DNA of 64,000 nucleotides from NCBI RefSeq assembly GCF_026967805.1, contig NZ_JAPVBG010000001.1, positions 1 to 64,000 of the forward strand. The letters are read 5' to 3'. The notes below the pieces were generated by a model that was given only the letters and a program-made list of their open reading frames with translations, was not told the DNA's origin and did no database searches. Made by a program: the position numbers and the translations under genes. The DNA is from Blastococcus sp. VKM Ac-2987 (GTDB taxonomy: Bacteria; Actinomycetota; Actinomycetes; Mycobacteriales; Geodermatophilaceae). Below, piece by piece: positions 2,330-20,918 of this stretch (position 1 is the stretch's first letter; each line of letters begins with the position of its first letter).

Positions 2330-3868
2330 TCAGATGACCGCGCCGACCCGCCAGGGCACGAACTCCTCGTCGCCGTAGCCGAGGTCCTCGCTCTTGGTGG
2401 CCCTGCCGGACGCCGTCTCCAGCACCAGGTCGAAGATTTCCTGCCCCACCTCGTCGAGGGAGCGGTCGCCGTCGACGATGGCGCCGGCGTTGACGTCCAT
2501 GTCGTCGGTCATGCGCCGGTACAGCTCGCTGTTGGTGGCGACCTTGATGCTGGGCACCGGCTTGCAGCCGAAGGCCGAGCCGCGACCGGTCGTGAAGACC
2601 ATGACCTGGGCACCACCGGCGACGATGCCGGTGACGGAGACGGGGTCGTAGCCGGGGGTGTCCATGAACACGAAGCCCTTGCTGGTGACCTGCTCGGCGT
2701 AGTCGACGACGTCGGCCAGCGGCGTGGTCCCGCCCTTGGAGATGGTGCCGAGCGACTTCTCGAGGATCGTCGTCAGCCCGCCGGCCTTGTTGCCCGGGGT
2801 CGGGTTGTTGTCCAGCGTGCCCCCGGACTTCGCGAGGTACTCCTCCCACCAGCCGATGCGCGCGAGGAGCTTCTCGGCGACGGCCGGGGCCACCGCCCGG
2901 CGGGTGAGCAGGTGCTCGGCGCCGTAGACCTCCGGCGTCTCGGCGACGACGCCCGTCCCACCGTTGCGGACCAGCCGGTCGACAGCGGACCCGACGGCCG
3001 GGTTGGCCGTGATCCCGGAGTAGGCGTCCGAGCCACCGCAGTTGGTGCCGAGGACGAGCTCGCTGGCGGGCACCGTGGAACGGCGGGCCTTGTCCACCTC
3101 GGGGAGCATGCTTGTCAGCGTGGCCACGCCCGCTTCCACGGTCCGCCTGGTGCCGCCGAGTTCCTGGATCGTCGTCGCGACGATCGGCAGGTCGGGGCGC
3201 ACGGGGACGTTCCTCGTCAGCTCCGCGATCTGGTTGTGCTCGCAGCCGAGGCCCAGCACGAGGAAGCCGCCGAAGTTCGGGTGCATCAGGTAGCCGGCCA
3301 TGGTGCGGCGGAGCACGGCGAGTGTCTCGGGGTCGCCGATCCCGCATCCGGTCCCGTGCGCGAGCGGGACGACGCCGTCGATGTTCGGGAATTGCTCGAG
3401 GAGCCCCGAGTACCGGAAGCGCTCGGCGATCTGCCGCGCCGCGGTGGCCGAGCAGTTCACCGACGTGAGGATCCCCAGGTAGTTGCGGGTCCCGACCCGA
3501 CCGTCGGAACGCACGTACCCCTCGAAGGTCGCCTGCTGCGCCACGGGCAGGACGTCCGCCGCCACGAGCCCCTCGTCGACGCCGCCCTCCCGGGAGAAGT
3601 GGCCGAAGCGCAGGTTGTGCGAGTGGACGTGGTCACCCGGCGCGATGTCGATGGAGGCGAACCCGATGACCTGCCCGTACTTGAGGACCGGTTCACCGGA
3701 CCGCACGGCGCGGGTCGCCACCTTGTGTCCACGGGGAACCGGGCCGGTCGGCGAGTCGACGTCGCCGATCGCCACCCCGACGTTGTCCGCCGGGCTGAGG
3801 ATCAGGAGACCCGGGTGCAACCGGTCGGAGGCAGCGCCCGAGGGGGTGTGCGCGTTCGTCGTCGTCAC
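2330..3868 (-). CDS. UxaA family dehydratase (altronate/galactarate dehydratase type)
   Basis: 512 residues joining an N-terminal SAF domain (about 15-100) to the C-terminal D-galactarate/altronate hydrolase domain. Visible signatures are GTRNYLGI followed by NCSAT near residue 145, an HGTGCG segment, and CGGSD followed by SGITANPA. These are the family's conserved Cys/His iron-binding regions. The family dehydrates altronate or galactarate to a 2-keto-3-deoxy sugar acid. The start is GTG, preceded by GGAGAAGAG at a good distance. It lies between the Ldh-type reductase and the ThDP enzyme on the same strand with short gaps, so one operon is likely. A second, unrelated dehydratase of the enolase superfamily is encoded in the same island (19,728-20,918). 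Confidence 0.85.
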   Translation of the reverse strand: MTTTNAHTPSGAASDRLHPGLLILSPADNVGVAIGDVDSPTGPVPRGHKVATRAVRSGEPVLKYGQVIGFASIDIAPGDHVHSHNLRFGHFSREGGVDEGLVAADVLPVAQQATFEGYVRSDGRVGTRNYLGILTSVNCSATAARQIAERFRYSGLLEQFPNIDGVVPLAHGTGCGIGDPETLAVLRRTMAGYLMHPNFGGFLVLGLGCEHNQIAELTRNVPVRPDLPIVATTIQELGGTRRTVEAGVATLTSMLPEVDKARRSTVPASELVLGTNCGGSDAYSGITANPAVGSAVDRLVRNGGTGVVAETPEVYGAEHLLTRRAVAPAVAEKLLARIGWWEEYLAKSGGTLDNNPTPGNKAGGLTTILEKSLGTISKGGTTPLADVVDYAEQVTSKGFVFMDTPGYDPVSVTGIVAGGAQVMVFTTGRGSAFGCKPVPSIKVATNSELYRRMTDDMDVNAGAIVDGDRSLDEVGQEIFDLVLETASGRATKSEDLGYGDEEFVPWRVGAVI

Positions 3869-6961: not shown

Positions 6962-7846
6962 TCAGCTCCGGGCCCGGCCGGACAGCTGCTCGACCAGCAG
7001 CAGCAGGGCGGAGTGGTCGAGCCCGCCGCGCCCCTGGGCGCGCAGCGCTCCCATCAGCTGGGCCGCGAGCGCACCGAGCGGGATGGCGACGCCGACCTCC
7101 CGGGCCGCCGACGTGACGATGCCCAGGTCCTTGTGGTGCAGATCCACGCGGAACCCCGGGGTGAACTCACGCCCGAGCATGCCGGCGCTCTTCCGGTCGA
7201 GGATGCGGTTGCCGGCCAACCCCCCGGCCAGCACCTTCACCGCCTGCTCGGCGTCCACGCCGTGGGCCTCGAGGAAGACGATCGCCTCTGCCACGAGCTG
7301 GATCGTGCCGGCGACGATGAGCTGGTTGGCGGCCTTCACGATCTGGCCGGATCCGGCGGGACCCACGTGGACGACGGTGGAGCCGACGGCCTCCAGAACG
7401 GGTCTGGCCGTCTCCACGTCGGCGCTCTCGCCACCGACCATGATCGACAGGGCGCCCTCGATCGCGGCGGGCTCGCCACCGGAGACGGGCGCGTCCAGGG
7501 CGCCGACGTCCTTGGCGCGGGCCGCCTCGGCGATGCGCACCGAGACATCAGGACGGATGGTGCTCGCGTCGACGACGAGGGTTCCGGGACGCGCGGCCGC
7601 CAGGACGCCGTCCTCCCCCAGCACGACCCTCTCCACGTCCGGCGAGTCGGGGAGCATGGTGATCACCACGTCTGCCTCCCGCACGGCCTCCTGGACACTG
7701 GCGGCGGCACGCCCACCCCGGTCCACCAGGGCATCGACCTTCGCGCGGCTGCGGTTGAAGCCGATGACGTCGTGCCCGGCCTCGACGAGATTGGCGGCCA
7801 TCGGGCCGCCCATGATGCCGAGCCCGATGAATGCGATCCTGGTCAC
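6962..7846 (-). CDS. garR: 2-hydroxy-3-oxopropionate (tartronate semialdehyde) reductase
   Basis: 294 residues, the standard length for beta-hydroxyacid dehydrogenases. The N-terminal Rossmann signature is GLGIMGGPMA at 8-17, the substrate-binding DAPVSGGE at 118-125 and the catalytic Lys at 171 in KAANQL. This pattern matches GarR/GlxR, which reduce tartronate semialdehyde to D-glycerate with NAD(P)H. The GTG start follows AGAGGAAG. It is 28 bp downstream of hydroxypyruvate isomerase on the same strand, and a glycerate kinase able to consume the product lies in the same island. Related 3-hydroxyisobutyrate dehydrogenase activity cannot be ruled out, since methylmalonate-semialdehyde dehydrogenase is also nearby. 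Confidence 0.85.
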   Translation of the reverse strand: MTRIAFIGLGIMGGPMAANLVEAGHDVIGFNRSRAKVDALVDRGGRAAASVQEAVREADVVITMLPDSPDVERVVLGEDGVLAAARPGTLVVDASTIRPDVSVRIAEAARAKDVGALDAPVSGGEPAAIEGALSIMVGGESADVETARPVLEAVGSTVVHVGPAGSGQIVKAANQLIVAGTIQLVAEAIVFLEAHGVDAEQAVKVLAGGLAGNRILDRKSAGMLGREFTPGFRVDLHHKDLGIVTSAAREVGVAIPLGALAAQLMGALRAQGRGGLDHSALLLLVEQLSGRARS

Positions 7847-9068: not shown

Positions 9069-9827
9069 GTGTCCATGAAACAGCTGTTCGAGAACGACGG
9101 CGTGGCCCTCGGGATGATGCTGTCCGGGGTGAGCAATCCCGCTGCGGCCACCATGCTGTCCTCCGCCGGGATGGACTACCTCATCCTGGACATGGAGCAC
9201 GGCCCCTTCGACTGGTCCGACATGGCAGCCATGATCGGGACCGCCCGCGGCGCCGGCATCCAGCCGGTCGTGCGCATCCCCGAGATCCGCCGGGAGACGG
9301 TGCTCAAGCCCCTGGACGCCGGCGCGGCCGGCCTGCTGGTCCCCATGGTGGACACGGTGGAGCAGGCAGAGGAGATCGTCCGGCACGCCAAGTACGCCCC
9401 CCAGGGGCAGCGGGGCACGGCCCTCCGCCGCGGGCACAGCGACTACCGGAAGAACCCGCCGGTCGAGTACATGGCGCGGGCGAACGACGAGACGACCATC
9501 GCCATCCAGATCGAGAGTCGGGAAGCGCTCAAGAACGCCGAGGCGCTTGCCGCCGTCGACGGTGTCGACGCCCTCTTCGTCGGCCCTTTCGACCTCTCGG
9601 TCGACATGGGCCTGACCGGCCAGGCCACGCATCCGCAGATGCGTGAGGCCTACCAGGCCGTGCTGGCCGCCGCGAAGGCCTCGGGCAAGGTCGCCGGCAT
9701 CCACCTCTTCGACCTCGACCTGGCGAAGTCGCTGATCGCCGAGGGCTACCAGATGGTGTCGGTCAGCAGCGACATCGACATCATCGTGGACCAGTCAGCC
9801 GCGAACGTCTCCGCACTCCGCGGCTGA
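9069..9827 (+). CDS. HpcH/HpaI family class II aldolase (2-keto-3-deoxyhexarate aldolase type)
   Basis: 252 residues, the normal size for GarL/HpaI/RhmA enzymes. Recognisable parts are the DMEHGPFDW metal/substrate loop near residue 40, GAAGLLVPMV with the following Glu-rich helix, the QIESREAL metal-binding Glu segment and FVGPFDLS. The family splits 2-keto-3-deoxy-glucarate and related acids into pyruvate plus an aldehyde such as tartronate semialdehyde, matching the GarR homologue next door. AGGAGG at 9,059-9,064 is 4 nt from the GTG at 9,069 and 10 nt from the ATG at 9,075, so either start is possible. It is transcribed alone, away from hyi. Confidence 0.85.
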   Translation: MSMKQLFENDGVALGMMLSGVSNPAAATMLSSAGMDYLILDMEHGPFDWSDMAAMIGTARGAGIQPVVRIPEIRRETVLKPLDAGAAGLLVPMVDTVEQAEEIVRHAKYAPQGQRGTALRRGHSDYRKNPPVEYMARANDETTIAIQIESREALKNAEALAAVDGVDALFVGPFDLSVDMGLTGQATHPQMREAYQAVLAAAKASGKVAGIHLFDLDLAKSLIAEGYQMVSVSSDIDIIVDQSAANVSALRG

Positions 9828-11633: not shown

Positions 11634-13169
11634 TCAGGCCCCTACGTCGGCCTTCGACTCGTCCTCGGCCCGGGCCTTCCTGGCGCTCCGGCCCTTCCGG
11701 AGGTAGCGGATCAGCGGCAGCACGACGGCGAAGAGGACGACGGCACCGAACAGCGTCCCGGAAATCGGCCGCTCGACGAAGCCGAGCAGGTCCCCGTTGA
11801 AGATCCGCAGGGACTGGCGGAACGCCGTCTCCAGCAGTCCGCCCAGGACGAAAGCGAGGACGAGCGGTCCGGGCTCGAAGCCGTACTTCTTCATGAGGTA
11901 CCCGAGGATGCCGAACCCGATCACGACGAGCATGTCGTAGAAGCTCGTGTTGACCGTGTAGACGCCCAGCATGATCACGACGACCGTGATGGGCGAGAGG
12001 ATCGAGGCCCGGACCCGGACGATGCGGATGAAGAGGCCCACCATCGGCACGCTCAGGATGAGCAGGAACAGGTTGCCGATGTACATCGAGTCGATGACAC
12101 CCCAGAAGACCTCGGGGTTGTTGGTGATCAGCAGGGGTCCCGGCGAGATGCCCTGCAACAACAGGGCACCGAAGATGATCGCCATGGTGGAGTTCGCCGG
12201 GATGCCGAGCGTCAGCAGTGGGATGAACGACGACGTCGCCGCCGCGTTGTTCGCCGACTCCGGCCCCGCGACGCCCTCGATCGCCCCCTTGCCGAACCGT
12301 TCCGGCGTCTTGGACCGCCGCTTCTCCGTCCCGTACGCGACCAGGGAGGCGAGGGTCGCTCCCCCGCCGGGCAGGATGCCCAGGAAGAAGCCGATGACAC
12401 TGCCGCGGGCGATCGCGCCGCGGGACTGCCGGAAGTCCTGCTTGCTGATCCAGGCCCGGCCCACCTCGGAGGTGGCGACGGCAGCCTCGGCGCGGGCACC
12501 GAGCTGGTACAGGATCTCGCCCAGGCCGAACAGGCCCATGACGATGGGGACGAAGTCGAAGCCGTCGGTGAGGTAGAGGACGTCGAAGGTGAACCGCTGC
12601 GCGCCCACGATCGGGTCCCGCCCGACCGTGGCCAGCAGGAGCCCCAGCAGGGCCGCGATGGCGCACTTGAGCGGCGCTCCCGTACCGAGCGTGGAGACGA
12701 GCAGGATGCCGAGGACAGCGAGCGCCGTGTACTCCGGCGGGCCGAAGTCGAGGGCGAACCCGGCCACCACCGGCGCCACGAACGTCATCGCGACGATGGA
12801 GATCGTGGCACCGATGAAGGAGCCGACCGCCGCGATGCCCAGCGCGTTCCCCGCGCGGCCGGTTCGCGCCATCTGGTAGCCGTCGAAGGTCGTGACCACG
12901 GTCGAGGCTTCTCCCGGCAAGGACAGGAGCACCGACGTGATCGTGCCGCCGTACTGGGCGCCGTAGTAGATGCCGGCGAGCATGATGATCGCCGTCTCGG
13001 AGGGGATCGCGTACGTGACGGGCAGCAGGATCGCGATAGTCGCCGTCGGGCCCAGCCCCGGCAGCACCCCGATGACCATGCCGAGAGTGACGCCGAGAAG
13101 GCAGAAGACGAGGTTGGTCGGGGTGAGGACGACGCCGAATCCGAAGAGGATCGGGTCCAGGAAATCCAC
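11634..13169 (-). CDS. tctA: Tripartite tricarboxylate transporter large permease TctA
   Basis: 511 residues, the family's normal length, hydrophobic throughout. It carries the conserved GVLPGLGPTATIAILLP loop near residue 38, a second GILPGGGATLASL glycine-rich loop and AGPESANNAAA before SFIPLLTLGIPANSTMA. TctA forms the 12-helix channel subunit that takes up carboxylates using ion gradients, with TctB and the binding protein TctC. The start is GTG with GAGGGAA about 11 nt upstream. The short charged C-terminal tail is unremarkable. It sits immediately downstream of tctB. Confidence 0.95.
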   Translation of the reverse strand: MDFLDPILFGFGVVLTPTNLVFCLLGVTLGMVIGVLPGLGPTATIAILLPVTYAIPSETAIIMLAGIYYGAQYGGTITSVLLSLPGEASTVVTTFDGYQMARTGRAGNALGIAAVGSFIGATISIVAMTFVAPVVAGFALDFGPPEYTALAVLGILLVSTLGTGAPLKCAIAALLGLLLATVGRDPIVGAQRFTFDVLYLTDGFDFVPIVMGLFGLGEILYQLGARAEAAVATSEVGRAWISKQDFRQSRGAIARGSVIGFFLGILPGGGATLASLVAYGTEKRRSKTPERFGKGAIEGVAGPESANNAAATSSFIPLLTLGIPANSTMAIIFGALLLQGISPGPLLITNNPEVFWGVIDSMYIGNLFLLILSVPMVGLFIRIVRVRASILSPITVVVIMLGVYTVNTSFYDMLVVIGFGILGYLMKKYGFEPGPLVLAFVLGGLLETAFRQSLRIFNGDLLGFVERPISGTLFGAVVLFAVVLPLIRYLRKGRSARKARAEDESKADVGA

Positions 13170-13185
13170 CGTAGCTACCGTTCCC

Positions 13186-13773
13186 TCAGAAGAAGAGCAG
13201 GCGTGGGAGGTTGACGCTCAGGCCCATGATGAAGACGAGATAGACGACGACGGTGGTGCCGACCGCGATCGTCAGCGTCATCCGCCACGTCTCCTTCCCG
13301 ATGATCTTCAGCCAGAAGGCCATCAGGAGGAGGGTCGTGATCTCGAACCCGAGCGGCTCGAAGAGGTACGTGAACACGATGAGGCTCAGGGTGGCCACGG
13401 CCGTGATCCGCCAGCCCCGGCCGAAGCGCTCGGCGCCGTGCAGTCCGTGCCCGAGAGCCAGCAGGGCCACCGAGGCGACGACCATGGCGGCGCTGAGCAC
13501 GAGCGGCCACAGCCCGGGCCCCGGGTTGCTGATCGAGCCGACGCCGAGGTCGACCGCGCCGAAGGCGCCCGCGATCCCGAGGGCCAGGGGAACCGCGGCG
13601 GTCACGATCCCGACCCAGCGCGGGAGGGCCGGCTCCTCGTCGGGCAGCGGGGACAGCGGCCCGCCGAGGTCCTCGTCCTCGTACTCCGAAGCGGTGTGCT
13701 CGGCGCCCTGGCGCGGGGCGGGGGCCGGCGAGGCCCCGCCCCGCGCCGCGGCGGACTCAGGTACCGAACTCAA
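13186..13773 (-). CDS. tctB: Tripartite tricarboxylate transporter small permease TctB
   Basis: 195 residues. After a hydrophilic N-terminus there are about four hydrophobic segments (VGIVTAAVPLALGIAG, LWPLVLSAAMVVASVALL, ITAVATLSLIVFTYLFEPLG, TIAVGTTVVVYLVFIMGL), as in TctB. The best start is the TTG at 13,773, which overlaps the TGA of tctC as cTTGAg and gives translational coupling; an open frame continues upstream but lies inside tctC. The family is poorly conserved, so the call relies partly on its position between tctC and tctA. Confidence 0.85.
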   Translation of the reverse strand: MSSVPESAAARGGASPAPAPRQGAEHTASEYEDEDLGGPLSPLPDEEPALPRWVGIVTAAVPLALGIAGAFGAVDLGVGSISNPGPGLWPLVLSAAMVVASVALLALGHGLHGAERFGRGWRITAVATLSLIVFTYLFEPLGFEITTLLLMAFWLKIIGKETWRMTLTIAVGTTVVVYLVFIMGLSVNLPRLLFF

Positions 13774-14831
13774 GCCCCGCCGCCCACGTCGATCCCGAGC
13801 TCCTCGATCTGCTGCTCGAACCGAGCGCGGTCGGACTCGACCTCCTCCTTGACCTCGTCGCCGCCCACGACGTAGGGCTCCATGAGGTTGTCCTCCATGA
13901 ACGACGAGCACTCTTCGCTCTCGATGGCGTCACCGAGCAGCTGCTGGAGCCGCGCCGTCGTCTCCTCCGGGATCCCGGGCGGGCCCACGTAGAAGGCGGT
14001 GCGGTCGATCACGACGTCGACCCCTACTTCCTTCGCGGTCGGCACCTCGGGCAGCAGCGGGCTGCGCTCCTCGGCGAAGATCGCCAGCGGGGTGAGCGCG
14101 CCGGCCTCGATCTGCTCGGCCACCTCAGACGGGTGCGCGCCCGAGAAGTCGACCTGCTGACCCAGCAGGGCCGTCCGTGCGGGCCCACCGCCCTCGAACG
14201 GCACCTCCGTCGCAGGGATGCCCGCCTCCTCGAAGAACAGCGTCAGCGCGAACGACGTCGTGCTGCCGAGCCCGGAGGTGCCGAAGGTGACCGGCTGACC
14301 GCTAGCCGTGGCCGCCATGAGGTCCTCCACCGTCTGGTACGGGCCGTCGGCGTTGGCCACGAGCACAGCCGGCTCCCGGACGGCGCCGGTCACCACCGTC
14401 ATGTCGTCGAGGGTCAGCGGGCTCTCCTCCGGGAAGAAGATCGGAGTGACCGCGAACATCGACTTGGCCGCCAGCGCCAGACGGTGCCCGTCCGGCTCCC
14501 CGTTGACCACGTACTGCGTGCCGACGACCCCGTTCGCCCCCGGCCGGTTCTCGACGAGGACCTCTTCGTCGACCTGCTCCGAGAGGCACTGTGCCACCGC
14601 GCGGGTCAGGAGGTCGCTGCTCCCCCCGGCCGCGTAGGGGACGACCAGCTCGATCGGCTTGGTGGGGAACTCCTCGGCAGCAGCGGCGGCGGCGTCACCA
14701 CCCGCCTCCGGGTCGGCGTTCCCGCCCTGCGCGCAGGCGGCGAGCGTCAGGCTCGCCGTCGCTGCGATCACCAAAGACCTGCGCCGGTGCGTGCTCGGGC
14801 TCGTTACGCGCCCATGTCCGTACGTGTTCAT
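13770..14831 (-). CDS. tctC: Tripartite tricarboxylate transporter solute-binding lipoprotein TctC
   Basis: 353 residues. The signal peptide has an Arg-rich start (THRRRSL), a short hydrophobic core and a lipobox LTLAAC with Cys33 as lipidation site, followed by an Ala/Gly-rich linker. The mature part shows the TTT/Bug family features FPTKPIELVVPYAAGGSSDLL, VENRPGANG and GTSGLGSTT. It binds a carboxylate substrate at the cell surface and delivers it to TctAB. GGAGGAAAC directly precedes the ATG. It lies 105 bp downstream of the D-2-hydroxyacid dehydrogenase; that gap contains no GGTATACC, so co-transcription with it is likely. Confidence 0.95.
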   Translation of the reverse strand: MNTYGHGRVTSPSTHRRRSLVIAATASLTLAACAQGGNADPEAGGDAAAAAAEEFPTKPIELVVPYAAGGSSDLLTRAVAQCLSEQVDEEVLVENRPGANGVVGTQYVVNGEPDGHRLALAAKSMFAVTPIFFPEESPLTLDDMTVVTGAVREPAVLVANADGPYQTVEDLMAATASGQPVTFGTSGLGSTTSFALTLFFEEAGIPATEVPFEGGGPARTALLGQQVDFSGAHPSEVAEQIEAGALTPLAIFAEERSPLLPEVPTAKEVGVDVVIDRTAFYVGPPGIPEETTARLQQLLGDAIESEECSSFMEDNLMEPYVVGGDEVKEEVESDRARFEQQIEELGIDVGGGA

Positions 14832-14936: not shown

Positions 14937-15956
14937 TCACCGGCTCAGCCCGCCGGACGGGCTGGCGACGACCCGTTGCCGTGCCGACTCGAGCACTGCC
15001 GGGTTCACCACCGCGGCCGGGCGACCACCGCTGAGGACCGCGACGACGGCCTCGGCGGCACCGACGGACATCCGCTCCAGGGCACCGCCGGTGTGCGCGG
15101 CGGTGTGCGGGGTCATGACGACGTTCGGCAGGTCGAAGAAGCCGCAGTCCGGAGCGGGCGGCTCGCTCTCGAACACGTCCACCCCCGCGCCGGCGATGCT
15201 GTTCCGCCGGAGGCAGTCGATGAGCGCCTCCTCGTCGACCACACCGCCCCGGGCTGTGTGGACGAGAACCGCGTGCGGGCCCAGCTGTGCCAGCTCCGCC
15301 GCTCCGATGAAGCCCCGGGTCTCGGCGGTCAGGGGCACGTGGACGGTGACGGCATCGGACGTGCGGAGGAGGTCGCCGAGCCGGGCCACCGGCTCGGCCC
15401 CGCGTTCCCGGATCTCCGCCGCGCTGAGCTGCGGGTCGAAGCCGAGCACGTCCATGCCGAACCCCTGGCCGGCGATGCGTGTCACGTGCGTGCCGATGCG
15501 CCCCATGCCGATCACTCCGAGCCGATGGCCGCCGAGCTCGCTCCCGACCAGGCTGTCGCGGATCTCGAACCGGCCGCCTCGGACGACGGCGTCGGCAGCG
15601 ACCACCTTGCGCTTCACCGCGAGCAGCAGGGCGAAGACGTGCTCGGCGACCGACTGCATGTTGGCATCGGGGGTGTTGGCGACCAGGATGCCCAGGGCCG
15701 TCGCGTCGGCGACGGCGATGTTGTCCACGCCCACCCCGTGGCGCGCCACCACGCGCAACCGGGGAGCACGCCGCAGTTCCTCACCGCTCAGGACCCGGGT
15801 CCGCACCAGGATTCCTTCGACGACCGGCAGGACGTCATCGAGTGGTGTCGGGTCGTCGCCGTAGCCGAGAACCACGTCGGCACTGCCTTCGAGCAGACGG
15901 AGCGCCTTCGGGTGCACGGGCTGGGTCACGTAGACCACGGGCCGCGGAGCCGACAT
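14937..15956 (-). CDS. D-isomer-specific 2-hydroxyacid dehydrogenase
   Basis: 339 residues. SerA/glyoxylate reductase superfamily. Visible parts are ARHGVGVDNIAV, the NAD-binding GVIGMGRIGTHVTR, VTVHVPLTAET, the VHTARGGVVDEEAL catalytic Arg region, GAGVDVFESEPP and the catalytic His in MTPHTAAHT. The start chosen is ATG at 15,956 (MSAPRPVVYVTQ), as upstream codons encode low-complexity residues. Likely substrate is hydroxypyruvate, glyoxylate or the transported D-hydroxy acid itself. It heads the leftward unit containing tctCBA and mmsA, about 100 bp from operator site 4. Confidence 0.85.
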   Translation of the reverse strand: MSAPRPVVYVTQPVHPKALRLLEGSADVVLGYGDDPTPLDDVLPVVEGILVRTRVLSGEELRRAPRLRVVARHGVGVDNIAVADATALGILVANTPDANMQSVAEHVFALLLAVKRKVVAADAVVRGGRFEIRDSLVGSELGGHRLGVIGMGRIGTHVTRIAGQGFGMDVLGFDPQLSAAEIRERGAEPVARLGDLLRTSDAVTVHVPLTAETRGFIGAAELAQLGPHAVLVHTARGGVVDEEALIDCLRRNSIAGAGVDVFESEPPAPDCGFFDLPNVVMTPHTAAHTGGALERMSVGAAEAVVAVLSGGRPAAVVNPAVLESARQRVVASPSGGLSR

Positions 15957-16189: not shown

Positions 16190-17287
16190 ATGAAGGTCCT
16201 CATCGCGCCGGACTCCTTCAAGGGGACGCTCCCCGCGACCGAGGCAGCAGCGTGCATCGCCGCCGGCTGGCGGAGCGCCCGCCCGGAGGACTCGATCACG
16301 CTGCTGCCCCTGGCCGACGGCGGAGAGGGCACCCTCGAGGCGATAGCCGCCGCCGACCGCCGTTCCGAGTGGATCGACGTGCCGGCGGTCACGGGGCCGT
16401 GCGGAGCGGCGGTCACCGCCCAGTACCTCATGACAGGCGACGGGACAGCTGTGATCGAGCTGGCCCGGAGTAGCGGCCTGCCGCTGGCATCACGGCTGGA
16501 TCCCCTCGGTGCCACGACCAGGGGCGTGGGCGAGGTCGTGCTGGCAGCGCTCCGCCGCGGTGCGACGGAGATCGTCGTGGCCGTGGGCGGTTCGGCATCG
16601 ACCGACGGCGGCGCAGGCCTGCTGGCAGCCCTCGGCCTGCGGCTGCTCGGCGCACGGGGGGACGAGCTGCCGGACGGCGGAGCAGCCCTCGCCCGGGTCG
16701 CCGGCCTCGACCGGTCGCAGCTGGTGGCCCCGCCGCCCGGCGGCGTCACGGTCCTGACCGACGTGCGCAACCCGCTGCTCGGTCCGGCCGGAGCGGCGGC
16801 GGTGTTCGGCCCGCAGAAGGGGGCGACGCCCGAGCAGATCCGCCTGCTCGACGAGGCCCTCACCCGGTGGGCGGCCATCTGCGGCGGCGATCCGGAGCAA
16901 CCGGGCGCCGGCGCCGCAGGGGGGACGGCCTTCGGCCTTCAGGCGTTGTGGGGCGCGTCACTCAGCTCAGGCGCCGTTCACGTCGCACGCCTGGCCGGAC
17001 TGCACGCCGCCCTGGACTCCTCGGCCGACCTGGTGCTGACCGGCGAGGGCCGTTTCGACGGTACGAGCCTCGGCGGCAAGGTCTGCGGCCACGTCATCGA
17101 GCAGGCCCGCTCGCGCCGGCTGCCGGTCGGCGTGGTCTGCGGGCAGCAGGACGCCTCCCTGGAGGTCCCGGGGGTCCGGGCCGTGTCCCTGAGCGAGCTG
17201 GCCGGCTCGGCGCGAGAGGCCATGGCCGATCCGAGCCGGTGGGCCGAGGAGGCGGGAGCACATGCAGCCCGCACCTGGGCTCGGTGA
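16190..17287 (+). CDS. Glycerate kinase (GarK/GlxK family)
   Basis: 365 residues, the usual size for class I glycerate 2-kinases. It begins MKVLIAPDSFKGTL, the family's most conserved segment, and has LADGGEGT near residue 45, the glycine-rich VAVGGSASTDGGAG near 130 and DLVLTGEGRFDGTSLGGKV near 285. It phosphorylates D-glycerate to 2-phosphoglycerate, the last step of the tartronate semialdehyde branch. The ATG at 16,190 is preceded by AAGGGA at 7 nt. It is divergent from the transporter unit, with operator site 4 between them. Confidence 0.92.
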   Translation: MKVLIAPDSFKGTLPATEAAACIAAGWRSARPEDSITLLPLADGGEGTLEAIAAADRRSEWIDVPAVTGPCGAAVTAQYLMTGDGTAVIELARSSGLPLASRLDPLGATTRGVGEVVLAALRRGATEIVVAVGGSASTDGGAGLLAALGLRLLGARGDELPDGGAALARVAGLDRSQLVAPPPGGVTVLTDVRNPLLGPAGAAAVFGPQKGATPEQIRLLDEALTRWAAICGGDPEQPGAGAAGGTAFGLQALWGASLSSGAVHVARLAGLHAALDSSADLVLTGEGRFDGTSLGGKVCGHVIEQARSRRLPVGVVCGQQDASLEVPGVRAVSLSELAGSAREAMADPSRWAEEAGAHAARTWAR

Positions 17288-17297
17288 GACGGCGGGC

Positions 17298-18173
17298 TCA
17301 CCCCACGAGGTCGGCCACGGCGGCAGCCAGACCGGCCGCAGCGTGCGGCGCCTGCGGGAGGAAGAAGCTCGGTTCGGTGAGCTCGACCTCCAGGACCGTC
17401 GGTCTGCCCGTCGGGTCCTCCACCAGGTCGATGCGCGCGTACAGGAGCGGCGCCACGGCGGGCAGCAGCGCCGCGACGGCGTCCAGCACCGATTCGGCGG
17501 CGTCGCGCTGAGCGGCGCTCGCCCGGACGGGGGCCAGATCACCCCGGCTGTCCCTGTCCTGGCGCACGCCCTCACCCCGGCGCAGCAACGGCCCCTTCCG
17601 CACGGCGTGGGAGAACCGGCCCCCGAGGAACAGCATCGCCGTCTCCCCCGCCCGGTCGACGCTGGCCTGGTACGGCTGCACCATGGCGACCCGGCCGGCG
17701 GCGGCGAGGTCCGCGGCGTGCGCCAGCGCCGCGTGCGGGTCGGTCCACCGGGCGGTGTCCCGTGAGCCGGCGGACACGGACGGCTTGACCACCCATTCCG
17801 CCCCCTCGGGCAGCTCGTCGACGGCGCCGGGGGCCCAGACGGTCGGTACCACGGCGACACCCGCCCGCTCGAGGTCCCTCAGGTAGGACTTGTCCGCGTT
17901 CCAGCGCATGACCTCCACCGGGTTGCGGAGCCGGGGCACCTGCGCCGCCCAGCCGAGGAACTCGGGGAGGCGCCACGTGTAGTCCCAGCAGGACCGCACC
18001 ACGGTCAGCGCGAAGGCGTTCCAGTCGACGCCGGGGTCGTCCCAGCGGACGACGAGCGGCTCGAGACCAGCCGCCACGAGGGCCGGGACGGCCAACGGGA
18101 GGTCGGGGTCCAGCGGCAGTCCTCGCTCCGACGTGACCAGGGCGACCCGGGCCCCCGCCGGCACCTCAGGCAC
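17298..18173 (-). CDS. RimK/DcsG-like ATP-grasp ligase
   Basis: 291 residues. The pre-ATP-grasp part has VRSCWDYTWR and RNPVEVMRWNADKSYL. The ATP-grasp part has VVKPSVSAGSRDTARW and the metal-binding EVELTEP with FFLPQ near the end. This arrangement is seen in small ATP-grasp ligases related to O-ureido-D-serine cyclo-ligase (DcsG) and RimK, which activate a carboxylate as acyl phosphate and join it to an amine. The GTG start overlaps the stop of the semialdehyde dehydrogenase by 8 nt (GTGCCTGA), so the two are translationally coupled. No partner enzyme for a known antibiotic pathway is nearby, and the substrate is unknown. Confidence 0.75.
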   Translation of the reverse strand: MPEVPAGARVALVTSERGLPLDPDLPLAVPALVAAGLEPLVVRWDDPGVDWNAFALTVVRSCWDYTWRLPEFLGWAAQVPRLRNPVEVMRWNADKSYLRDLERAGVAVVPTVWAPGAVDELPEGAEWVVKPSVSAGSRDTARWTDPHAALAHAADLAAAGRVAMVQPYQASVDRAGETAMLFLGGRFSHAVRKGPLLRRGEGVRQDRDSRGDLAPVRASAAQRDAAESVLDAVAALLPAVAPLLYARIDLVEDPTGRPTVLEVELTEPSFFLPQAPHAAAGLAAAVADLVG

Positions 18174-19683
18174 CGGCTGCTCTCAGCACGCCGTCGACCC
18201 GCCGCGGGATGCCGCGGTAGTCGTCCGCCAGCTCCTCGGGCAGGACAGCTTCCGGTGCCCCCTGCCAGGTGACCGGGCGCAGGAAGCGGCGGACGGCCGT
18301 TGCACCCACCGAGGTGTGCTGGCTGTTGGTCGAGGGCCAGGGGCCACCGTGGTGCTGGGCCCAGGAAACCGCCACACCCGTCGGGTAGGAGTCGTAGACC
18401 AGCCGTCCGGCACGGCCGCGCAGGCGCCGGGACACCTCGAGAGGCAACGCGTCCTCCCCCTCGCCGCGCAGCACGGTCGCGGTCAGCGACGACGGCATGA
18501 GCGCCAGTGCCCGGAACAGGTCGGCCTCGCCGTCGTAGCGCACCACGACGGACACCGGCCCGAAGCACTCCTCCGTCAGACCGGAGGTCAGGTCGGCGGC
18601 CGAGGTGGCCAGGAGCGTGGGCACCGCCTCGAACCCGGTGCCGGTGGGCTCGCCACCGTGCGCGACCACGTCCACGTCGGCACGGCCGATCAGTTCACGG
18701 GTGATCCGCCCGTAGGAGGCGGCGATGCCCTCGTTGAGCAGGACCTGGACGGGGGTGTCCCGCACCGTCTCGGCCATCCGCCGGACGACGGCGTCCCCGT
18801 CCGCACCCGCCGGGACGAACACGAGTCCGGGCTTCGTGCAGAACTGGCCCGCCCCGAGGGTGAAGGACCCGACCAGGCCGCTGCCGATCTCCTCCGCACG
18901 CTCGCGGGCTGCCAGCGGCGTGACCACGACGGGGTTCAGGCTGCTCAGCTCGCCGAAGAACGGGATCGGGTCGGCCCGGTCCTCGATGATGTCCAGCAGC
19001 GCGCGAGCGCCGTTGACCGAGCCGGTGAACCCGACGGCGCGCACCGCGGGATGGGCGACCAGATCGGCCCCGGCCTGCAGACCGTGCACGATCGCCAGGG
19101 AGGAGTCCGGCGCACCCGCCGCGCGGACGGCTTCGGACAGCACGTCGAAGCACAGCTGCGAGGTCGCGGGGTGGGAGCCGTGCGCCTTGACGACGACCGG
19201 GCATCCGGCCGCCAGGGCGGAGGCGGTGTCACCGCCCGGGACGGAGAAGGCCAGGGGGAAGTTGCTGGCGCCGAAGACGGCGACGGGGCCGATCGGCAGC
19301 AGCATGCGGCGGAGGTCTGGGCGCGGCCCCATCGGGGTGTCCACGGCGTGGTCGATCGCCGCCTCGAGGTAGCTCCCCTCGTCGAGCACGTCGGCGAACA
19401 GGCGGAGCTGGAAGCAGGTCCGGGTGAGTTCCCCGTCCAGCCGGGGGGCACCGAGAGCGGTCTCCCGGTCGGCGACCGCGACGACGTCGGCGCGCTCGTC
19501 GTCCAGTGCGTCGGCCAGCGACCGCAGGAGCGCCGCTCGGCCGACGCGACCCAGCGCCTCCAGGTCCGGTGCGGCCGCCAGGGCTGCCCCGCACAACCGA
19601 TCGACCTCGGCAGCAGCTGTCTCCGGGACGCCGATCGCCAGCCCCTGGCCGGAGCGGGGATCGGTGCTGATGACGTCGGGCAT
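18166..19683 (-). CDS. Alpha-ketoglutaric semialdehyde (2,5-dioxovalerate) dehydrogenase
   Basis: 505 residues. ALDH family with VFGASNFPLAFSVPGGDTAS near 136-155, VVKAHGSHP, catalytic Glu245 in FFGELSS and nucleophile Cys282 in GAGQFCTKPG. The FSVPGGDTASA and HPAT patterns are typical of KGSA dehydrogenases in sugar acid degradation. The enzyme oxidises 2-oxoglutarate semialdehyde to 2-oxoglutarate with NAD(P)+. The ATG at 19,683 follows CTGGAGGA. It is 44 bp downstream of the enolase-superfamily dehydratase. The 2-keto-3-deoxyhexarate dehydratase that would link the two is not in the window. Confidence 0.88.
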   Translation of the reverse strand: MPDVISTDPRSGQGLAIGVPETAAAEVDRLCGAALAAAPDLEALGRVGRAALLRSLADALDDERADVVAVADRETALGAPRLDGELTRTCFQLRLFADVLDEGSYLEAAIDHAVDTPMGPRPDLRRMLLPIGPVAVFGASNFPLAFSVPGGDTASALAAGCPVVVKAHGSHPATSQLCFDVLSEAVRAAGAPDSSLAIVHGLQAGADLVAHPAVRAVGFTGSVNGARALLDIIEDRADPIPFFGELSSLNPVVVTPLAARERAEEIGSGLVGSFTLGAGQFCTKPGLVFVPAGADGDAVVRRMAETVRDTPVQVLLNEGIAASYGRITRELIGRADVDVVAHGGEPTGTGFEAVPTLLATSAADLTSGLTEECFGPVSVVVRYDGEADLFRALALMPSSLTATVLRGEGEDALPLEVSRRLRGRAGRLVYDSYPTGVAVSWAQHHGGPWPSTNSQHTSVGATAVRRFLRPVTWQGAPEAVLPEELADDYRGIPRRVDGVLRAAGA

Positions 19684-19727: not shown

Positions 19728-20918
19728 TCACCACGGCGCGTCGATGTGGGACCGGTCCACGGTCCAGGCCCGGGCCTGGTCGCTCAACGTGATACCGAGG
19801 CCCGGACGGCCGGAGAGGTGCATCCGCCCGCCGCTTATTCCGAGGCGCTCGTCGAACAACGGGTGGAGCCAGTCGAAGTGCTCCACCCAGGACTCGTGGG
19901 GGTAGGCCGCCGCCAGGTGCAGGTGGATCTCCATGGCGAAGTGCGGGGCAAGCAGCACGTTCCGGTGCTCGGCGAGAGTTGCCAGGCGGAGGAACTGGGT
20001 GATGCCGCCGATGCGCGGGGCGTCGGGCTGGAGGATGTCCACGGCGCCCAGGCGGAGCAGTTCGTGGTGGTCGGCGACGCTGGTCAGCATCTCGCCCGTG
20101 GCGATCGCCGTGTCCAGGGAGCGGGTGAGCTGGGCGTGCCCCTCGGCGTCGTAGGCGTCGAGCGGCTCCTCGATCCAGGTCAGGCCGAACTCCTCGAGCG
20201 CCCGGCCGACCCGTCGTGCGGTGGGCCGGTCCCACTGCTGGTTGGCGTCCACCATCAACGGGAAGTCGTCACCGATGTGCTCGCGCACCGCGCGCACGCG
20301 GCGCAGGTCCTGCGCCGAATCGGGCTGACCGACCTTGATCTTGATGCCGCCGATGCCGGCGTCCATCGAGGCGCTGGCGTTGTCCATGACCTGCTCGATC
20401 GATTCGTGCAGGAACCCGCCGGAGGTGTCGTAGCAGCGGACCGAGTCCCGGTGTGCCCCCAGGAGCTTGGCCAGCGGCAAGCCGGCCCGTTTGGCCTTGA
20501 GGTCCCACAGGGCGATGTCGACAGCGGCGATCGCCTGCGTCGACGCCCCGCTGCGACCGACCGACGCCCCGGCCCAGACCAGCTTCGTCCACAGCCGTCC
20601 GATGTCGTTCGGGTCCTCGCCGATCAGGCCGGGGGCGATCTCCCGGGCATGGGCGAACTGCGCCGGCCCACCGGCACGCTTCGAGTAGCTGAACCCCAGA
20701 CCCTCATGGCCACCCTCGGTACGGACCTCGGCGAAGAGGAACGCCACCTCGGTCATGGGCCGCTGCCGGCCCGTCAGCACCTTGGCGTCGCTGATCGCAG
20801 CCCCCAGTGGGAGGGTGATCGACGAGAGCGTCACGGACTCGATCCGGTCGAGGACCGCGGCGCCGAGGTCCGGACGTGGGGCATCGCCACTCACGGCGGC
20901 GGGCATGTCGGCGGCCAT
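19728..20918 (-). CDS. Enolase-superfamily L-talarate/galactarate dehydratase-like protein
   Basis: 396 residues. Mandelate racemase/muconate lactonizing subgroup. Catalytic features are all present: KxK at Lys193/Lys195 (GIKIKVG), metal ligands Asp224, Glu250 and Glu276, Asp299 and general base His326 in APHFAMEIHLHLAA. The APHFAMEIH and HFDWLHPLF segments resemble talarate/galactarate dehydratases, which form 5-keto-4-deoxyglucarate. The ATG at 20,918 follows AGAGGAG. It is first in a three-gene unit with the semialdehyde dehydrogenase and ATP-grasp ligase. A degenerate operator lies about 110 bp upstream. Confidence 0.85.
   Translation of the reverse strand: MAADMPAAVSGDAPRPDLGAAVLDRIESVTLSSITLPLGAAISDAKVLTGRQRPMTEVAFLFAEVRTEGGHEGLGFSYSKRAGGPAQFAHAREIAPGLIGEDPNDIGRLWTKLVWAGASVGRSGASTQAIAAVDIALWDLKAKRAGLPLAKLLGAHRDSVRCYDTSGGFLHESIEQVMDNASASMDAGIGGIKIKVGQPDSAQDLRRVRAVREHIGDDFPLMVDANQQWDRPTARRVGRALEEFGLTWIEEPLDAYDAEGHAQLTRSLDTAIATGEMLTSVADHHELLRLGAVDILQPDAPRIGGITQFLRLATLAEHRNVLLAPHFAMEIHLHLAAAYPHESWVEHFDWLHPLFDERLGISGGRMHLSGRPGLGITLSDQARAWTVDRSHIDAPW

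Follow-up and report, generated by a model that had tools for sequence, protein, structure and literature searches.

A DcsG-like ATP-grasp ligase gene associated with hexarate catabolic operons in Geodermatophilaceae

The window analyzed in this study, a 64,000-nucleotide stretch of Blastococcus sp. VKM Ac-2987, contains a gene encoding an uncharacterized DcsG-like member of the ATP-grasp family. The fold is ordinary; the setting is unusual and testable. Among its close orthologs in Geodermatophilaceae, 22 of 25, from different genera, stand beside the genes for the putative 2-oxoglutarate semialdehyde dehydrogenase (KGSADH) or the L-talarate/galactarate dehydratase (GalrD) of hexarate catabolism. 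This link is lineage-bound and loose. At slightly less than even confidence, we suggest that the ligase is an accessory carboxylate-activating enzyme recruited into hexarate catabolism, and not one of the core steps. The main features of the window are listed in Table 1.

Table 1. Features of the window discussed in the text
Feature	Coordinates	Strand	Remarks
DcsG-like ATP-grasp carboxylate ligase	17298..18173	-	GTG start, 291 aa
Subfamily loop motif GEGVRQDRDSRGDL, residues 200-213 of the ligase	17535..17576	-	Presumed active-site lid
8-nt stop-start overlap GTGCCTGA, aldehyde dehydrogenase/ligase	18166..18173	-	Presumed translational coupling
NADP-type aldehyde dehydrogenase, putative KGSADH	18166..19683	-	Upstream of ligase, same strand
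L-talarate/galactarate dehydratase (GalrD)	19728..20918	-	NF047820, 687 bits, cutoff 500
Glycerate kinase	16190..17287	+	Convergent to ligase; hexarate route via tartronate semialdehyde
D-2-hydroxyacid dehydrogenase	14937..15938	-	Next downstream of ligase on its strand
Tripartite tricarboxylate transporter	11634..14831	-	TctA 11634-13169, TctB-like 13186-13773, TctC 13770-14831
HpcH/HpaI aldolase, 2-dehydro-3-deoxyglucarate-aldolase-like	9075..9827	+	Below curated cutoffs
2-hydroxy-3-oxopropionate (tartronate semialdehyde) reductase	6962..7846	-	Above TIGR01505 cutoff
GarD-like galactarate/altronate dehydratase	2330..3868		391 bits, below the 731 cutoff

The ligase protein and its gene

The AlphaFold model of the window ligase (mean pLDDT 95.3) predicts a single-domain ATP-grasp protein, and ATP-grasp enzymes make up all of the 50 top PDB hits listed by Foldseek. 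DcsG (PDB 6jil) is the only strong solved relative by sequence (E 5e-42, or 1.7e-80 in a profile search) and ranks first in both Foldseek and VIA-align (TM 0.90; Z 37.6, rmsd 1.8 Å, 283 residues, 38% identity), followed by ArgX, RimK, glutathione synthetase, and Ddl at Z 20-23. Six residues, K130, E177, R247, D249, E262, and E264, are invariant in 59 diverse homologs; K130, R247, D249, E262, and E264 are also aligned in DcsG, and ATP- and Mg-binding roles may be assigned to these by analogy. No Pfam model matched the window ligase, and the Pfam glutathione synthetase ATP-grasp model is touched by 20 of the 59 homologs. The description in the original prediction, a DcsG/RimK-like ATP-grasp ligase, is thus right, with DcsG clearly the nearer of the two.

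Homology to DcsG extends over the whole length of the protein and includes the fold and the ATP-grasp core residues, and DcsG is the nearest characterized relative, which speaks for a D-cycloserine synthetase. However, the identity is 38%, the NCBIfam equivalog model of DcsG (NF058666) gives the window ligase 259.1 bits at a curated cutoff of 360, and the loop at residues 200-213 is different. Further, the gene is located in a hexarate catabolic operon: its neighbors are hexarate, transporter, and housekeeping genes, and no other cycloserine-type genes were recognized among them. The window ligase is therefore related to DcsG but probably is not DcsG itself, and we consider a D-cycloserine synthetase proper extremely improbable.

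A second alternative is a peptide- or protein-modifying ligase of the RimK/LysX type, adding amino acids to a protein or a carrier. RimK, ArgX, and LysX come next in structural similarity (Z about 22; 22-23 for the group including glutathione synthetase), and the arginine-rich part of the subfamily loop, RQDRxSRGD, would suit an acidic partner. The shared ATP-grasp fold is accompanied by an identity of just 14-19%, though, and DcsG, a small-molecule enzyme, is nearer by 15 Z units; in the neighborhoods analyzed, no gene for a LysW-type carrier protein was recognized next to the ligase. This alternative seems improbable to us.

The loop itself, GEGVRQDRxSRGDL, occurs with variation in most members of the clade that contains the Geodermatophilaceae ligases, and the model confidence falls to a pLDDT of 83 around residues 200-210. 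We found no sequence signature of sugar-acid-linked ligases. The same motif is carried by linked and unlinked ligases, including those of Aeromicrobium, so no sequence change marks the adoption of a new substrate.

The open reading frame and its 8-nt overlap with the stop of the aldehyde dehydrogenase gene at 18166 were confirmed. An alternative in-frame GTG at 18164, nine bases in, would instead leave a 1-nt gap to the dehydrogenase. The first GTG is favored because an overlap is seen in relatives too, of 8 nt in Blastococcus (GTGGCTGA) and of 4 nt in Modestobacter (GTGA), start sites in relatives being approximate in this context analysis, which was done with a home-made gene finder. The dN/dS ratio of the ligase is 0.20 in comparison with B. 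capsensis; for two other Blastococcus genomes compared with each other, it is 0.34. By this measure the gene is under purifying selection. Together with the confident structural model and the match to DcsG, these ratios identify a real, intact gene. That the ligase belongs to the same regulated unit as the dehydrogenase is plausible from the overlap; the scan for promoters and terminators, made with a consensus unsuited to high-GC actinobacteria, gave nothing useful on this point. The ligase may be co-translated and co-expressed with the last catabolic enzyme of the operon.

Hexarate loci with and without the ligase

The gene content of the window cluster reads as a pathway of hexarate breakdown to pyruvate and glycerate. 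In addition to the genes in Table 1, the cluster encodes a hydroxypyruvate isomerase-like protein and a GntR/FCD regulator. The GarD-like protein is a second dehydratase in the cluster, unrelated to the enolase-type galactarate dehydratase. The dehydrogenase upstream of the ligase, originally named KGSA dehydrogenase, is an NADP-type aldehyde dehydrogenase with 1eyy and 3v4c as its best solved relatives; it scores under every curated cutoff, and the specific name rests on the operon context in related genomes. Close homologs of KdgD (best match 35% identical) and of the glucarate dehydratase GudD were not found in the window genome; for GudD, the empty result is weak evidence. The D-2-hydroxyacid dehydrogenase gene adjoins the ligase in B. 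capsensis as well.

In the sample of 112 Geodermatophilaceae genomes, close orthologs of the ligase (66-88% identity, other matches being at about 50% or lower) were identified in 25; the genomes nearest to the window are those of Blastococcus, B. capsensis first. In 21 of these, belonging to Blastococcus, Modestobacter, and Geodermatophilus, the ligase is directly downstream of KGSADH, and the usual gene order is LysR>KdgD>GudD>GalrD>KGSADH>ligase>AEC carrier>malate:quinone oxidoreductase>FAD-linked oxidase. In B. capsensis (G004), it directly follows the galactarate dehydratase gene with no dehydrogenase between them, and a KGSADH-like paralog (51%) sits elsewhere (L175, 5722-7218). The remaining three orthologs are unlinked: two adjoin ApbE (G027 and G036), one adjoins a UspA-like gene (G028), and two of the genomes (G028 and G036) have no close hexarate genes. 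Thus the pairing is conserved within the family, and the suggestion of a chance passenger in a single genome can be dismissed. A contig labeled Bacillus sp. AZ43 (UNVERIFIED_ORG; L085) bears a Blastococcus-type hexarate operon, and this label looks wrong.

The ligase is retained in several rearranged loci. In the window and in B. capsensis, the LysR, KdgD, GudD, and AEC genes are missing and the ligase is kept; in two other genomes (G042 and G102), GudD and GalrD are missing and the order KdgD>KGSADH>ligase is kept. Conversely, the operons of G005, G063, and G027 have KGSADH followed by AEC and are intact except for the ligase, and in G061 and G111 no ligase follows KGSADH; the absences are clean at L128, L129, L140, L177, and L178. 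In G048 (L179:10023-10238), only the first residues of the ligase survive, joined in frame to the end of the FAD-linked oxidase; they are the relic of a deletion that removed the remainder of the ligase together with AEC and the malate:quinone oxidoreductase.

Counted over genomes, which ignores their kinship, close KGSADH is found in 22/25 genomes with the ligase versus 10/87 without it, and close GalrD in 21/25 versus 5/87. The ligase, in turn, does not always accompany the pathway: 5 of the 26 genomes with close GalrD and 10 of the 32 with close KGSADH have no close ligase. Since the genomes are related, the 22 linked cases represent far fewer independent events, and much the same pattern would result if the ligase had been inserted once and then inherited.

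To our knowledge, the bacterial hexarate (glucarate/galactarate) oxidative pathway as described (GudD/GalrD-KdgD-KGSADH) has no ligase step; in this it differs from the operons of most ligase-containing Geodermatophilaceae, which include the gene. We rejected the possibility that the ligase is a missing step of this pathway, since its distribution is lineage-bound and since operons that are otherwise intact lack it, which indicates that the pathway does not need the ligase.

Relatives outside the family

In a tree of 76 sequences, the Geodermatophilaceae ligases form one clade with those of G546, a Nocardioidaceae MAG, Aeromicrobium, and G325 (99% SH-aLRT). In G546, a genome from another family of the same order, the order of genes is 2-hydroxyacid dehydrogenase>ALDH>ligase>KGSADH-type ALDH (49%), and the locus adjoins an ABC transporter and an IclR-like regulator. 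By its gene order, this is a second and different KGSADH-type pairing, seen in one genome outside the family. By contrast, no sugar acid link was observed at the ligase loci of Aeromicrobium, Micromonospora-type, and other relatives. Their neighbors, some of which were named by eye from the sequence, include genes for an alpha/beta hydrolase, an MpaB-type oxygenase, a heme A synthase-like protein, a threonyl-type tRNA synthetase, and RimI/TsaD. The result anticipated for a chance association, a ligase occurring without sugar acid genes, was therefore obtained for these lineages and for the three unlinked orthologs within the family, but not for the majority of the close orthologs.

Several of these settings recur. 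Micromonospora-type genomes encode, upstream of the ligase, a conserved protein of ~110 aa (SFAAGHGGAKAVIEYVGKRGARIVLVGADG; loci L055, L069, L070, L074-L082, L111, and L112) that has no match in Pfam; the ligase in them is often near the heme A synthase-like gene. More distant DcsG-like ligases are encoded between a rimI-type acetyltransferase gene and tsaD, nearly overlapping both (L199 in G808 and L208 in G780), and, in the f105 genomes (L194-L206), just upstream of the threonyl-type tRNA synthetase gene. A hydroxy amino acid is a possible substrate for these distant branches, as the recurrent threonine/t6A neighborhood may suggest.

These observations bear on the possibility that the ligase is a general-purpose enzyme with a function unrelated to hexarates, the same as in Aeromicrobium, Micromonospora-type, and unlinked Geodermatophilaceae genomes, and that an accidental position at the operon's end, since inherited, has supplied it with a convenient promoter. 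The wider family is indeed common in Actinomycetes, in many unrelated contexts (209 of the 298 genomes of the order and 185 of the 395 of the class). Within Geodermatophilaceae, the three unlinked orthologs (of which two come from genomes lacking the pathway) and the clean absences from several operons are in line with this possibility, and so is the slightly faster evolution of the ligase compared with its operon partners (dN/dS 0.34 versus 0.22-0.23). On the other hand, the ligase has been kept through several versions of the operon, with a hexarate or KGSADH neighbor, the stop-start overlaps are conserved, and G546 has the second kind of KGSADH-type pairing. We regard a passenger role as only slightly less probable than the accessory one, at somewhat less than even chances.

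Possible role in hexarate catabolism

The proposal of an accessory, recruited ligase can be elaborated as follows. An old actinobacterial ligase lineage would have entered the hexarate operon in an ancestor of Geodermatophilaceae, to be translated there together with the last catabolic enzyme. The ligase may act on an acid present during hexarate degradation, perhaps at the level of 2-keto-3-deoxyhexarate. This level is proposed because it is the one intermediate common to the galactarate-only locus of B. capsensis and the KdgD-only loci of G042 and G102; from the absence of genes we infer that the rearranged loci have this compound, and not the semialdehyde, in common. By analogy with the family, the DcsG-fold enzyme would phosphorylate the carboxylate of its substrate with ATP, and an amine would then attack the acyl phosphate to give an amide, or the product would be cyclized as in DcsG. 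We think it unlikely, though worth considering, that a pathway acid, for instance one of the 2-keto-3-deoxyhexarate level, is coupled to an amine or cyclized solely during hexarate use, a conjugate not described before then serving as a sink, a signal, or a repair product.

The coupling of the ligase to the semialdehyde dehydrogenase, a central point of the original prediction, agrees with the conservation of the gene pair but has become doubtful as a functional link, because B. capsensis has GalrD and the ligase together and lacks the dehydrogenase at this locus. The outcome of the search for close KdgD and GudD in the window genome weakens this role as well. Similarly, a single metabolite common to all contexts of the ligase could not be proposed, as it fails for G546, G028, and G036.

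A literature search, with most subscription journals outside its reach, returned nothing relevant on DcsG, on ATP-grasp enzymes in connection with galactarate, or on Geodermatophilaceae and galactarate. The actinobacterial ligase family is large, is present in about two thirds of the sampled genomes of the order, and is uncharacterized apart from DcsG, the one member for which we found a solved structure. Through the Geodermatophilaceae operons, one branch of this family is connected with a small, well defined set of metabolites, so that its substrate can be tested for directly. Should a pathway acid prove to be the substrate, the textbook scheme of hexarate catabolism would gain a branch.
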